From contig DUQQ01000084.1 in the NCBI GenBank assembly GCA_012837705.1, positions 1-46,409 on the forward strand: 46,409 bases of DNA, read 5' to 3'. A program made the position numbers and the translations under genes. The notes beneath the pieces were generated by a model. That model saw only the letters and a list, made by a program, of their open reading frames with translations. It was not told the DNA's origin and made no database searches. How positions within the stretch are numbered: position 1 is the first letter of the stretch; each line of letters starts with the position of its first letter. The stretch comes from Hydrogenispora sp. Its GTDB lineage: Bacteria > Bacillota > UBA4882 > UBA10575. This document shows, piece by piece, positions 8,139 through 12,460 of the stretch.

Positions 8139-9014
8139 CTAGACTTCAACGCCGAGGAACACGCGGAGCAGAATCCCGATGACAAAACTGAGGCCAGCTA
8201 CACCCAGACTGATCAGAGTCATCTCCAGAAAACGGGGCCAGAAGGGCAAGTCCTTGGCGACGGCAATATAGTAGTTAAAGACCAGAATAATGATGACGCC
8301 GATGAGGAGCGTTAGGGCTAGACTAAGGGAGTAATTGGAAGATAGCAAATAGGGCAAGATTAAAGCAAAGACCGTGACGAGATACGCGACCCAGGTATAA
8401 AGGGCGGATTTAAGAGCCTCTGCTGGCTTACCCCCACCGGCTTTGTTGGAGAGATACTCGGAAGCGCCCATTGAGAAAGAAGCGGCGATCCCGGTGATTA
8501 AACCGGACAAAGCAGTTAAACGGGTATTTTGGAGCGCAAAAGTCAGTCCGGCCAGCGTTCCGGTGAGTTCGACGAGCGCATCATTGAGACCAAGCACGAT
8601 TGAACTAACATAGTTGAGGCTCTCTTCCTCCAGTAAGTCAAGGAGTTTATGTTCGTGCTCTTCCTCGTCCGCAATCACCTGGGCGATTTCGGGGATCCGG
8701 TTGCTAAGTTCTGCGTAGGTCTCTTTCGCTTGTTTTTCGCCCATCTCCATCAGTTTGAGACTGAAGGTGAGTCCGAAGATCCGGGCACTCCAGGTAAAAA
8801 GGAAGATCTTGAAACGGTTTGCTTTGACGTCTTTTTGTGTATATTTCCGGTAAACCCGATAATGGTATAGTTCTTCGCTGGCAATCTTTTTAAGGATTTC
8901 CTGGTTGGTCGGGTTCGGAACCATACGGGCCAGCCGTTGGTAAATATGGTGTTCGGTTAGTTCGTTCTTTTGAAAAGCGATCAGCTTTTTTAAGTGTGCG
9001 TTTTCTAAGTTCAA
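8139..9014 (-). CDS. Ferritin-like domain / VIT1-CCC1 family metal transporter
   Basis: A 291-residue two-part protein. Residues about 1-130 form a rubrerythrin-like four-helix ferritin domain with ligand-like ELTEHHIYQRL, SEELYHYRVY and DEEEHEHKLL motifs. Residues about 140-290 are a VIT1/CCC1 transporter domain with GLNDALVELTGTLAGLTFAL and the GASEYLSNKA motif. Such proteins are thought to move iron or manganese across the membrane, with the ferritin part binding metal. The start is TTG at 9014 with AGGAGG nine bases upstream. It is divergent from the RHH regulator of the zinc locus, so coordinated metal control is possible. The direction of transport is unknown. Confidence 0.85.
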   Translation of the reverse strand: MNLENAHLKKLIAFQKNELTEHHIYQRLARMVPNPTNQEILKKIASEELYHYRVYRKYTQKDVKANRFKIFLFTWSARIFGLTFSLKLMEMGEKQAKETYAELSNRIPEIAQVIADEEEHEHKLLDLLEEESLNYVSSIVLGLNDALVELTGTLAGLTFALQNTRLTALSGLITGIAASFSMGASEYLSNKAGGGKPAEALKSALYTWVAYLVTVFALILPYLLSSNYSLSLALTLLIGVIIILVFNYYIAVAKDLPFWPRFLEMTLISLGVAGLSFVIGILLRVFLGVEV

Positions 9015-9103: not shown

Positions 9104-9132
9104 TTGACAAATGAGAAAAAAAGGAAGATAAT
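9104..9132 (+). promoter_or_regulatory. Sigma-A promoter of the RHH regulator (and possibly znuACB)
   Basis: A perfect -35 TTGACA (9104-9109), a 17-bp spacer and -10 GATAAT (9127-9132). The palindromic operator begins eight bases after the -10, covering the expected transcription start. Confidence 0.78.
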
Positions 9133-9140
9133 CGAGTTGG

Positions 9141-9157
9141 GTATTACAAAGTAATAC
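9141..9157. promoter_or_regulatory. Palindromic operator, probable RHH repressor site
   Basis: GTATTAC (9141-9147) and GTAATAC (9151-9157) are perfect inverted repeats separated by AAA. They lie over the transcription start of the RHH gene. Position and symmetry are those of an autoregulatory repressor site. Binding by the encoded regulator is inferred. Confidence 0.65.
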
Positions 9158-9209
9158 GGGACAGGGCGCGAAAGGAACACAACTCGTAAACCAATCAGGA
9201 GGAAGCAAG

Positions 9210-9476
9210 ATGAGTCATAAAAGGAAACAAGAAGTGATCACCTTTAAGGTGGATGAAACCCTAAGTAAAGCGCTGGATGGGGTCCCTAATCGTTCTGAGT
9301 TTATTCGGACAGCAATCATGGCTGCTTTGCAAAGCACCTGTCCCCTGTGCCGTGGGACAGGAATACTAACTCCGCAGCAACAGAAGCATTGGCAAGAATT
9401 TTCCCAAAACCACCCGTTGATGAAATGTACCGAATGCCATTCTCTGCATCTGGTCTGTGCCGTCCAGCAAAAATAA
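9210..9476 (+). CDS. Ribbon-helix-helix (CopG-type) regulator with C-terminal zinc ribbon
   Basis: An 88-residue protein. Residues about 8-40 form an RHH DNA-binding fold (VITFKVDETLSKALDG, then NRSEFIRTAIMAAL). The C-terminal half carries cysteines C44/C47 (CPLC), C73/C76 (CTEC) and C83 with several histidines, a zinc-ribbon-like site that could sense metal. It lies 134 bp upstream of znuA with no terminator between them, and its own promoter overlaps a perfect palindrome. It therefore probably represses itself and perhaps the zinc transporter according to metal status, playing the part Zur plays elsewhere. AGGAGG precedes the ATG. Metal sensing is inference from the cysteines and the neighbours. 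Confidence 0.78.
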   Translation: MSHKRKQEVITFKVDETLSKALDGVPNRSEFIRTAIMAALQSTCPLCRGTGILTPQQQKHWQEFSQNHPLMKCTECHSLHLVCAVQQK

Positions 9477-9610
9477 GGTTTCGTACCTACCAACAATCCG
9501 GCAAAAATAATGCACAGTTCGCTTTCTTGTAGTCTTTTAATTTTATGAATCTAAGCCAAAGTCTTCGGTGATCCTTAAATGATCCATATTATGGGGGGAG
9601 GGGATTTAAC

Positions 9611-10582
9611 GTGAAACGAAACGGAAGACCGTGGAGAAAGCTTCTGCTTCTCCTTGGTGGCGGTCTGTTACTGGCGGTAGCGGCCAGAGTAGGGAGCAGA
9701 CTGGTCACCGCCGACGCCATTCGTCCTGGAGATAGGGGTAAGATCAATGTTTTTGTCAGTGTTCTCCCGCAGAAGTACTTTGTTGAACGGATTGGGGGGG
9801 AGCGGGTTTCGGTTACGGTGATGGTTGGTCCCGGGCAAAACCCGGCCACATACGAACCCTTACCCCAGCAGATGAGGGCGCTGACCGAAGCTGATCTTTA
9901 TTTCCGGATCGGGGTGCCCTTTGAGACGGCTTGGATCGACCGTTTGCAAGCGCTAAACCGGGAGTTGATTATGGTTGATACCCGGGAAGGGGTTGCTTTA
10001 CGGGAAATGGAGCAGGCCTGTCATGGGTCGGAGGCGGAAACAGCGGATCTGCATGCCCATGGCCACCACGGGGAGGGACTACTCGACCCCCATATCTGGC
10101 TTGACCCGCTCCTGGTCAAAATTCAAGCGGAAACGGTTTACCGGGCCCTGGCGGCCTTTGATCCTGGTGCCCGGGATTATTATCAAGCGAACCTTGCACG
10201 CTTCCACGCCGATCTGGACCAGCTCCATACCGAGCTCCAGGCGACCTTTGACCGTTTAAAAGTGAAGACGTTAATGGTTTATCATCCCGCCTGGGGTTAT
10301 TTAGCCGACCGGTATGGACTCAAGCAGGTGGCGCTTGAAGTGGAAGGTAAAGAACCGGGCCCCCGTAAATTGGCCCAACTGATCGATTACGCGAAAGCAG
10401 AGGGGATCCGCGTGATCTTCATTCAAAGTCAATTCAATTCAGCGGCGGCGGAAGCGGTCGCCCGGGCGGTAAACGGGCAAGTGGTCTCCATTGATCCGCT
10501 GGCTGAAGATTATTTAACCAATATGCGCCGGATTGCCCAGGCGATCAAAGGGAGTTATGATACAAGTGGTGAAAGCAATTGA
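9611..10582 (+). CDS. znuA: Metal ABC transporter substrate-binding protein, ZnuA/TroA-like
   Basis: A 323-residue cluster A-I binding protein with an N-terminal membrane segment (about residues 9-28) and no obvious lipobox cysteine. A metal-site histidine position early in the fold reads PATYEP, where many ZnuA proteins have PHxYEP, so the usual first histidine is replaced by threonine or supplied by another residue. A histidine-rich stretch (HAHGHHGEG, about residues 150-158) followed by DPHIWLDP is typical of zinc binders. YHPAWGYLADRYGL and SIDPLAEDY complete the site. GTG start after GGGGGAGGGG. First of three transporter genes. Zinc is most likely; manganese is possible. Confidence 0.87.
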   Translation: MKRNGRPWRKLLLLLGGGLLLAVAARVGSRLVTADAIRPGDRGKINVFVSVLPQKYFVERIGGERVSVTVMVGPGQNPATYEPLPQQMRALTEADLYFRIGVPFETAWIDRLQALNRELIMVDTREGVALREMEQACHGSEAETADLHAHGHHGEGLLDPHIWLDPLLVKIQAETVYRALAAFDPGARDYYQANLARFHADLDQLHTELQATFDRLKVKTLMVYHPAWGYLADRYGLKQVALEVEGKEPGPRKLAQLIDYAKAEGIRVIFIQSQFNSAAAEAVARAVNGQVVSIDPLAEDYLTNMRRIAQAIKGSYDTSGESN

Positions 10583-11288
10583 ACTTCACCGGGTTAGTTT
10601 TGCCTATGAGGACCGCTTGATCCTCGAGGAGCTGAGCCTTACTGTTGGCGCCGGTGATTTTTTAGCGATTGTCGGACCGAACGGTGGGGGCAAGACGACG
10701 CTCCTCCGGTTACTAATGGGTAGTTTGGAGCCCGGACAAGGAGAGATTAAGATCTTCAACCAACCGCCCCGGAAAGCGCGGCGCTTGATCGGTTATGTCC
10801 CGCAACAGACCGTTTTGGACCGGGATTTCCCCGTTACGGCTTTGGAGGTTGTCCTCATGGGACGGTTGGCGCCAAATAGTCTTTTCCCCGGCTACCAAAA
10901 GAAAGACTACACGGAAGCATATGCGGCCATGCGGGCGGTTGGTATTGAAACGCTGGCCGATACCCGCTTTGGCGACTTATCGGGGGGACAAAAACAACGC
11001 ACTTTGATTGCGCGGGCACTGGTCAGTAAACCCCAATTACTGCTTCTTGACGAACCCACGGCCAGTGTGGATCCGGCGGTGGCGGAGGATATTTATAAAT
11101 TGCTGGCCCGGTTGAACCGGGAAGTTACCATTGTTTTGGTCTCCCATGACCTGGGGTATGTTGCTACCCACTTCCGCCAAGTCGCTTATCTAAATCGCCG
11201 CTTGACTTTGTATCATCCGGGGGGAAATGGTTCCGGTTCGTCTACGGACTGGTTTGGCGATAAATCGACGGTGGTGAGGGGTGGGTAA
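10557..11288 (+). CDS. znuC: Metal ABC transporter ATP-binding protein, ZnuC-like
   Basis: A 243-residue ABC ATPase with Walker A GPNGGGKTT, Q-loop YVPQQ, signature LSGGQKQRTLIARAL, Walker B LLLLDEPTASVDP and switch histidine in VLVSHDLGYV. It energises uptake of Zn (or Mn) with ZnuA and ZnuB. The frame opens upstream at 10533, but the ATG at 10557 (26 bp inside znuA) follows GGGAG and fits family alignments; a GTG at 10566 is also possible. It ends two bases before znuB, so the three genes form one operon. Confidence 0.9.
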   Translation: MIQVVKAIELHRVSFAYEDRLILEELSLTVGAGDFLAIVGPNGGGKTTLLRLLMGSLEPGQGEIKIFNQPPRKARRLIGYVPQQTVLDRDFPVTALEVVLMGRLAPNSLFPGYQKKDYTEAYAAMRAVGIETLADTRFGDLSGGQKQRTLIARALVSKPQLLLLDEPTASVDPAVAEDIYKLLARLNREVTIVLVSHDLGYVATHFRQVAYLNRRLTLYHPGGNGSGSSTDWFGDKSTVVRGG

Positions 11289-11290
11289 TA

Positions 11291-12148
11291 ATGGGTGCTT
11301 TTTTCGCGGCTTTGTTGCAATATAAATTTCTACAAAATGCGGTCATGGCCGGGGTGCTTTCTAGCCTCGCCTGTGGCGTAACCGGTGTTTATGTAGTGGT
11401 GAAACGGATCACCTTTATTAGCGGTGGGATCGCCCACGCGGTTCTGGGCGGAATTGGCATTGCCTATTATCTTGGGCAAGACCCGCTACTCGGGGCGGCA
11501 TTAACGGCGCTGTTTTCCGCTGTTTTGCTCGGCCTGATCAATCTAACCGCCCGTCAACACGAAGACACCATCATCGGCGCTTTATGGGCTGTCGGCATGG
11601 CGGTAGGGATCATTTTTATGGCGCTGACGCCCGGGTACAGCGTGGATCTGATGAGTTTTCTCTTCGGTAATATTCTTATGGTTACGGAGCCGGTGCTCTG
11701 GGCTCTTTTCCTCTTAGATCTGGTTATCCTTTTGGTGGTGGCGGTTTTTTACCGTCAGTTTCTGTTGGTTTGTTATGATGAGGAATATGCCCGTTTGCGT
11801 GGTCTACCGGTTAAGACGCTATACATTTTACTTTTGGCGTTGATCGCTTTAACAGTGGTGATCCTGATTAAAGTGGTTGGTTTAATCATGGTCATTGCTT
11901 TATTGACATTACCGGCGGCGGTAGCCGGTCTTTTTACCCATAAATTACCCCGTATGATGGCTGTGGCCACGGGTTTGAGTTTCCTCTTTATCCTGAGCGG
12001 ACTGGCCTTGTCCTACCAGTTGAACCTTCCGTCCGGGGCGACGATTGTGATCATGGCGAGCATCGGTTATCTGGCTGCCTTGGCTTGGCGTAAGCTTTTG
12101 CCCTTGGCCCGGCGACGGGAAACCACATTTAAGAAGTTGTTTCCGTAA
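11291..12148 (+). CDS. znuB: Metal ABC transporter permease, ZnuB-like
   Basis: A 285-residue ABC-3 family permease with eight or nine predicted helices. Family motifs include GVYVVVKRITFISGGIAHAVLGGIG near residues 28-52 (read in two parts) and the GLIMVIALLTLPAAVA segment near 200. It forms the membrane channel for ZnuA and ZnuC. ATG start, two bases after the znuC stop. No terminator was recognised directly after it, but a new promoter (12137-12165) overlaps its last codons. Confidence 0.9.
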   Translation: MGAFFAALLQYKFLQNAVMAGVLSSLACGVTGVYVVVKRITFISGGIAHAVLGGIGIAYYLGQDPLLGAALTALFSAVLLGLINLTARQHEDTIIGALWAVGMAVGIIFMALTPGYSVDLMSFLFGNILMVTEPVLWALFLLDLVILLVVAVFYRQFLLVCYDEEYARLRGLPVKTLYILLLALIALTVVILIKVVGLIMVIALLTLPAAVAGLFTHKLPRMMAVATGLSFLFILSGLALSYQLNLPSGATIVIMASIGYLAALAWRKLLPLARRRETTFKKLFP

Positions 12149-12165
12149 ACAGGTAATGATATAAT
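12137..12165 (+). promoter_or_regulatory. Promoter of the secA leader transcript
   Basis: TTGTTT (12137-12142), a 17-bp spacer and TATAAT (12160-12165). The predicted start near 12172 gives a leader of about 290 nt before secA. Confidence 0.55.
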
Positions 12166-12171
12166 AATTTA

Positions 12172-12460
12172 TTGGTATGACCGGAGAACAGCAGGGATTG
12201 GATGGTAGGCGCCCACGCTGGCTACCGTTTTGTCGCTTACGCTAGCGAGAATCGGGATTAATTTACGAGGGGAATCAGATTAAAGTGGGGGTGTCGACTA
12301 ACTTTCCTGTCGGATGAGGAGTAAAGCCGGGGGGCTGACAAGCTCCGAAGGCTGGACTTAAGCAAGTCTTGTCAGGGTGCCTCTGGCAACGGGAGAATGA
12401 CATAATAGTATTTTCTTATAGTAGTGAGAAACGGGTTGTGGGGAAGAGAGGGCGAAATTA
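12172..12460 (+). other. Structured, non-coding secA leader or small RNA candidate
   Basis: No convincing open frame lies in this 289-base stretch, but many local stems do. GGTAG and CTACC close a hairpin at 12204-12226; CGCT/AGCG lies at 12233-12246; CGAC/GTCG at about 12295-12312. CTGACAAG (12334-12341) pairs perfectly with CTTGTCAG (12367-12374), enclosing a smaller GACTT/AAGTC hairpin. TGCC/GGCA follows at about 12378-12388. I could not match it to T-box, SAM, cobalamin, SRP, 6S, RNase P or tmRNA consensus sequences. It may be a cis-regulatory leader for secA or an independent RNA. Confidence 0.45.

Follow-up and report, generated by a model that had tools for sequence, protein, structure and literature searches.

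A small ribbon-helix-helix protein with a zinc-knuckle tail, the probable zinc-responsive repressor of znuACB in Hydrogenispora sp.

A 2018 review lists Zur, of the Fur family, and AdcR, of the MarR family, as zinc-import sensors (PMC6103462), and NikR was called the sole metal-regulated ribbon-helix-helix (RHH) protein in a review of 2019 (PMC7055735). Here we describe a regulator that appears to work like Zur, yet stands outside the Zur, AdcR and NikR families. It is encoded on contig DUQQ01000084.1 of a Hydrogenispora sp. genome (C82 in our numbering, in which G, C and L denote genomes, contigs and loci), whose 46,409 nucleotides, analysed as a whole, form what we call the window; the assembly comprises 2.4 Mb and is 97% complete. 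The gene encodes a protein of 88 residues and is followed on the same strand by znuA, znuC and znuB. We consider it very likely that this protein, acting as a one-component system, represses transcription of the zinc uptake genes in response to zinc, a reading that draws on its domains and invariant ligands, on an operator-like motif that accompanies it across phyla, and on the genes that carry this motif.

9210-9476, + strand: regulator gene for the 88-residue RHH and zinc-knuckle protein, the proposed zinc-uptake repressor (open reading frame (ORF) list, homologues, conserved ligands)
9611-10582, + strand: znuA, zinc-type substrate-binding protein with the His-rich loop HAHGHH (PF01297, E 2e-71)
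10557-11288, + strand: znuC, ATPase (PF00005; best NCBIfam matches AztA/MntA)
11291-12148, + strand: znuB, permease (PF00950, E 1e-76)

An earlier reading made from the letters alone (the sequence-only reading) had placed zinc uptake genes behind the regulator, and Pfam confirms all three. The ORF of znuC extends from 10533 to 11288, the ATG at 10557 being the more likely start by inspection. A ribosome-binding site of good quality, judged by eye, precedes the regulator ORF, and a scan of the window found no terminator-like site between that ORF and znuA. The host genome has a single ZnuA and no second copy of the RHH regulator.

The protein itself had been described as an RHH domain joined to two CxxC knuckles with extra Cys and His residues, and the ORF, the profile matches and seven invariant residues bear this out.

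9237-9326, + strand: predicted RHH DNA-binding domain, residues 10-39 (aCcr1_fam and RHH_1 profile matches, predicted strand-helix-helix)
9339-9458, + strand: zinc-knuckle domain with candidate ligands C44PLC47, H60, H68, C73xxC76 and C83 (invariance in homologues)

Residues 9-37 match the NCBIfam aCcr1 RHH model (E 4e-6), and among 24 relatives aCcr1_fam matches all 24 and RHH_1 matches 22 (E up to 0.1). The domain carries the invariant or near-invariant signature ITFKVD...L...NRSEFIR.A, and the RHH-type residues K13, L18, S29, F31, I32, R33 and A35 are conserved in an alignment of 54 homologues. In one AlphaFold monomer model there is a strand at 9-12 and helices at 16-23 and 30-39; the modelled helices fit an RHH fold, and the tail is built as a helix and two strands. 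By its predicted N-terminal β-α-α arrangement and its sequence signature we assign the protein to the RHH (CopG/MetJ/Arc) superfamily. The two knuckles are C44/C47 and C73/C76, and the seven potential metal ligands C44, C47, H60, H68, C73, C76 and C83 are kept in all 54 aligned homologues. The term zinc ribbon, used in the sequence-only reading, needs correction: by weak profile matches the C-terminal domain is more like DnaJ/treble-clef knuckles than a classical zinc ribbon. Four cysteines suffice for a structural knuckle; the further invariant residues H60, H68 and C83 are therefore natural candidates for a sensing site.

These residues also bear on a different reading of the tail, in which the knuckles hold structural zinc and the protein is a redox or thiol switch whose response to oxidation or disulfide stress includes control of zinc uptake. 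CxxC pairs can be redox-active, and in the window's own family the regulator has a divergent VIT/rubrerythrin-like neighbour, of a kind linked to iron and oxidative stress. An invariant H60 and H68 would not be expected of a thiol switch, however; the VIT neighbour is confined to that one family, and elsewhere the genes with the motif belong to zinc, with no redox genes among them. We regard such a switch as very improbable.

Among the described systems, Zur is analogous in proposed function. It controls znuABC and COG0523 genes, and genes of these kinds carry the putative operator here, which like that of Zur is placed over the promoter; corepression by zinc may be a further common feature. 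E. coli Zur is also known to use multiple dimers on DNA (PMC6103462), as two dimers might do on the pair of boxes described below. The two proteins are not homologous, however: an RHH protein of 88 residues takes the place of a winged helix, the operator is another one, and Pfam gave no match to the Fur family (PF01475). NikR resembles the present protein in joining an RHH domain to a C-terminal metal-binding domain, in its mix of His and Cys ligands and in repressing a metal importer (PMC7055735), as we propose here. In contrast to NikR, the ligands lie in a knuckle domain and the genes concerned are those for zinc, not nickel. Pfam gave no match to the NikR C-terminal domain PF08753 at E up to 1, and the NikR operator before nik, GTATGA-N16-TCATAC (PMC7055735), differs from the GTAWTAC-N3-GTAWTAC found here before znu. 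AdcR of streptococci is likewise a zinc-import regulator outside the Fur family, but it is a MarR winged-helix protein of unrelated sequence, and Pfam found no MarR domain in the 88-residue protein.

Two further groups are alike in one domain each. The archaeal RHH cell-cycle regulators aCcr1/CdrS supply the closest RHH profile (aCcr1_fam, in 24 of 24 members), but lack a zinc domain and have other targets; at 26.5 bits against the curated equivalog cut-off of 60, the 88-residue protein falls outside the aCcr1 family NF053762. The cysteine-rich domain of DnaJ and anti-TRAP (RtpA) share a CPxCxGxG-type knuckle with the tail, through weak profile and PDB-sequence matches; the search of PDB sequences returned anti-TRAP alone, and weakly. 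The tail differs from both in having one CxGxG knuckle and a CxxC without GxG, in its invariant H60, H68 and C83, and in its fusion to an RHH domain, and its scores place it outside both families (DnaJ PF00684, 21.8 bits against a cut-off of 32.7; anti-TRAP PF15777, 12.3 against 32).

Upstream of the regulator gene lie a promoter and a putative operator of two boxes.

9104-9132, + strand: sigma-70-type promoter of the regulator-znu operon, TTGACA-17-GATAAT (consensus scan, 11 of 12 bases)
9141-9147, + strand: putative operator box 1, GTATTAC (motif scan, conserved in relatives)
9151-9157, + strand: putative operator box 2, GTAATAC, 10 bp from box 1 (motif scan, conserved in relatives)

The perfect palindrome GTATTAC-AAA-GTAATAC reported by the sequence-only reading is indeed present at 9141-9157. 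Within the window alone it could be due to chance, the palindrome with up to three mismatches matching once where 1.06 matches are expected; we judge it real because it is conserved at the znu promoters of relatives. With at most one mismatch the motif stands at 43 of 44 znu promoters, and perfectly at 30 of them, compared with none of 4400 dinucleotide shuffles. Its general form is two GTAWTAC boxes at a 10-bp step, direct or inverted, with TA as the central bases of the pair at 14 loci, AA at 14, TT at 12 and AT at four. GTAATAC and GTATTAC are reverse complements of each other, so the central base sets orientation only. The sequence first taken for a palindromic operator is thus retained, but the palindrome as the unit was rejected, direct repeats being equally common among the 44 loci; the unit is a pair of boxes of free relative orientation. 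Since this orientation is free and each box is itself near-palindromic, a single box probably binds one RHH dimer, and the pair is likely to carry two dimers one helical turn apart. Several promoters have further boxes (L024, L029, L030, L031, L035). A literature search on GTAATAC yielded nothing useful.

The position of the motif is that of a repressor site. At the window's promoter it begins 8 bp past the -10 element and so covers the expected transcription start; the overlap with the promoter claimed earlier applies to that start and not to the -35/-10 core. Of the 44 loci, 43 have a TTGAC -35 element no more than 60 bp upstream of the motif, at a distance of exactly 9 bp in 17 of them, so that the motif falls between the -35 and about +20. 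The sequence-only reading had also proposed looking for the palindrome elsewhere in the genome. The copy at 9141-9157 is the sole perfect one in the 2.4 Mb, and with up to three mismatches there are 65 sites against 54 in the control, barely an excess, so that in its host the regulator looks like a one-promoter regulator. In another genome (G012) the same one-mismatch motif, GTATTACAAAGTAATAT, recurs close to the ends of contigs at three loci (L083, L084, L085), which suggests a repeated element carrying it.

Relatives of the protein span five phyla, as assigned by record title, with close homologues in Bacillota, within the genus and family of the window, and in Spirochaetota, GN15, Hydrogenedentes and Lentisphaerae. 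In a first set of 26 loci confirmed by tblastn, 23 had full-length relatives, and znu genes adjoin the regulator in all 20 of these 23 that have sufficient flanking sequence; the other three (L025, L027, L033) lie near contig ends. Profile searches found the regulator in 32 of 393 Spirochaetota genomes and, at full length, in nine of 398 genomes from the phylum to which the window belongs, where five other matches were short and covered the knuckle only, four of them inside open frames of about 390 codons. A further alternative is an antitoxin-like autoregulator that came to lie before znu by chance. Most small RHH proteins are antitoxins. In the window and in its znu-linked relatives, however, the stretch between regulator and znu contains no toxin-like gene; in phylum after phylum it is znu that accompanies the regulator, and the motif also occurs in trans at znuA. 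We rejected an antitoxin role on these grounds and would give it next to no chance.

Where gene order varies, the motif stays with znuA. The regulator gene closes the operon in G067 and G108, where the motif precedes znuA, and at three loci where the regulator is convergent with znuACB (L037, L038, L041) the motif again stands in front of znuA, while the regulator gene has none. In a fresh set of 28 Spirochaetota loci, the motif was found at all 18 with znu beside the regulator and at one of the 10 without; in nine of the 10 genomes of this second group, it stands upstream of a ZnuA domain at an unlinked locus, at a distance of 120-375 bp. Of the 32 spirochaete genomes with the regulator, 21 have a perfect motif, compared with 12 of the 361 without it (Fisher p 9e-19), and of 10 loci examined among those 12 genomes one adjoins znuA. 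In 30 whole genomes (about 84 Mb) every perfect site lies at a znu or regulator promoter. The motif appears, on these counts, to belong both to the znu promoter and to the RHH protein. Most additional one-mismatch sites in related genomes fall within coding sequence, and we discounted these as chance. We treated likewise some perfect sites in spirochaetes that have the regulator, where the site is in coding sequence or not near zinc genes (for example in G527 C46, inside an S-adenosylmethionine-synthetase-like ORF, and in G499 C1). One genome, G567, has a perfect motif near a ZnuA gene (L273) and no regulator that we could find; its assembly may be incomplete or its regulator too divergent.

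Could the motif belong instead to a Zur-like protein of the Fur family, with the RHH protein a passenger in the operon or an accessory zinc-storage protein? Bacillus-type Zur boxes likewise contain GTAAT and ATTAC, and each of the 19 related genomes checked has Fur-family proteins. The geometry is different, however, GTAWTAC-N3-GTAWTAC here against GTAAT-N-ATTAC, and we found no Bacillus-type Zur box at the window's znu genes; a Zur box controlling znuA would, in the sequence-only reading, have refuted the proposal. Fur homologues are present with or without the motif, while the motif tracks the RHH gene. The host has two Fur-family proteins, one best classified as Fur and the other, whose gene follows a peroxiredoxin gene, as PerR; neither scores over a curated cut-off, and neither classifies as Zur. 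In the sister genus, G010 has znuACB without the regulator, and there a Fur-family gene (L200, G010 C24, 3800-4231, - strand) lies directly upstream of znuA, and the motif is absent there. This gene is probably a Zur in place of the RHH protein, and it looks as if one zinc regulator has been exchanged for another at the same operon within the family, other members of which (G009, G014, G015) lack both ZnuA and the regulator. We therefore rejected ownership of the motif by the Fur family and put its probability very low. The claim of a repressor at the znu palindrome that is independent of Zur gains support, in so far as genomic comparison can give it, from an operator that is conserved across five phyla, moves with znuA, occurs in trans in nine of 10 genomes and is found at COG0523 genes.

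These COG0523 genes, together with the transporters, are what points to the signal. In spirochaetes the motif lies directly before COG0523 GTPase genes at three places (G584 C4:9977, G584 C49:5988 and G499 C9:11337; L241, L244 and L253), and in G584 a further COG0523 gene directly follows the regulator gene (L180). COG0523 proteins are classical members of Zur regulons, and the class is largely tied to zinc limitation (PMC2770081); of all the sequence evidence, the motif at their genes speaks most strongly for zinc as the signal. The motif also precedes a second metal ABC operon in G410 and, in G584, an operon of two genes, the last of which is a Peripla_BP_2 gene. A variant of our reading keeps the protein and its operator but takes manganese, iron, nickel or cobalt as the effector, or has the transporter carry a substrate other than zinc. 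The best NCBIfam matches of ZnuA, ZnuB and ZnuC include the manganese models MntC and MntA besides the zinc Azt models, none over its cut-off; a few ZnuA proteins lack a His-rich loop, and some that are linked to the regulator (L032, L034, L190) have few histidines in it, so that manganese or another metal is possible in some lineages; and one distant locus, L186, adjoins a DUF1007 gene, a type that often occurs with nickel/cobalt transporters. We nevertheless think another metal unlikely, since the window's ZnuA and most others have the His-rich, zinc-type loop, the Cys-rich ligand set favours zinc, and COG0523 genes are in the regulon. At L186, which is in G410, the motif precedes the regulator gene, znu does not adjoin it, and the DUF1007 gene is convergent beside it. 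Another motif of that genome has znuA on one side and, facing it, a gene with a stretch that by eye is RcnA/HupE-like.

In the mechanism that we propose for zinc, the N-terminal RHH domains would dimerise and read the near-symmetric 7-mer GTAWTAC, and two dimers lying side by side on boxes 10 bp apart, between -35 and about +20, would block RNA polymerase. C44, C47, C73 and C76 would bind zinc, probably as a structural knuckle, and H60, H68 and C83 would form the zinc-sensing site, whose occupancy would stabilise a DNA-competent form in which dimer contacts dimer. The zinc-bound protein would thus be the repressing one; when zinc falls it would leave the DNA, allowing transcription of the regulator gene and znuACB. 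Because the regulator gene lies in the operon that it is thought to control, the circuit would be autoregulated.

Some results weigh against this reading. Besides the ZnuA loops with few histidines, the Pfam RHH_1 match of the window's protein is weak (14.8 bits, cut-off 20.5), the two AlphaFold monomer models are of middling confidence (pLDDT 62.6 and 73.5) and fold searches with them gave nothing useful, and hhalign found no similarity to a CopG sequence entered by hand. In G584, moreover, the motif is at the COG0523 genes and the Peripla_BP_2 operon and not at the ZnuA genes.

On balance we think it probable that the protein represents a new repressor family, in which an RHH domain and a zinc-knuckle sensor act through the GTAWTAC pair on znu and on COG0523 genes, in five bacterial phyla or more. 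It would stand in for Zur and be, after NikR, the second kind of RHH protein to sense a metal. We found no description of an RHH repressor of zinc uptake in the open-access literature searched; subscription papers and RegPrecise lay outside that search, so a prior description is possible. If the proposal is correct, it adds a third fold for the control of zinc import, one whose operator is defined and whose regulon pattern searches can predict, and it fills in zinc sensing in Spirochaetota, uncultured Bacillota and other phyla. At 88 residues it would also be a very small system in which to dissect the metal allostery of an RHH protein.

Finally, two features flank the operon. Facing the regulator is a divergent gene (8139-9014, - strand) whose product has a rubrerythrin-like N-terminus and a VIT1-type membrane domain (MbfA-like); its position opposite the regulator is kept throughout the window's family and not in other phyla. 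Downstream, the gap between znuB and secA (12149-12460) contains short inverted repeats, and Rfam gave no match. It exceeds the gap of three close relatives by some 200 bp, a small insertion.

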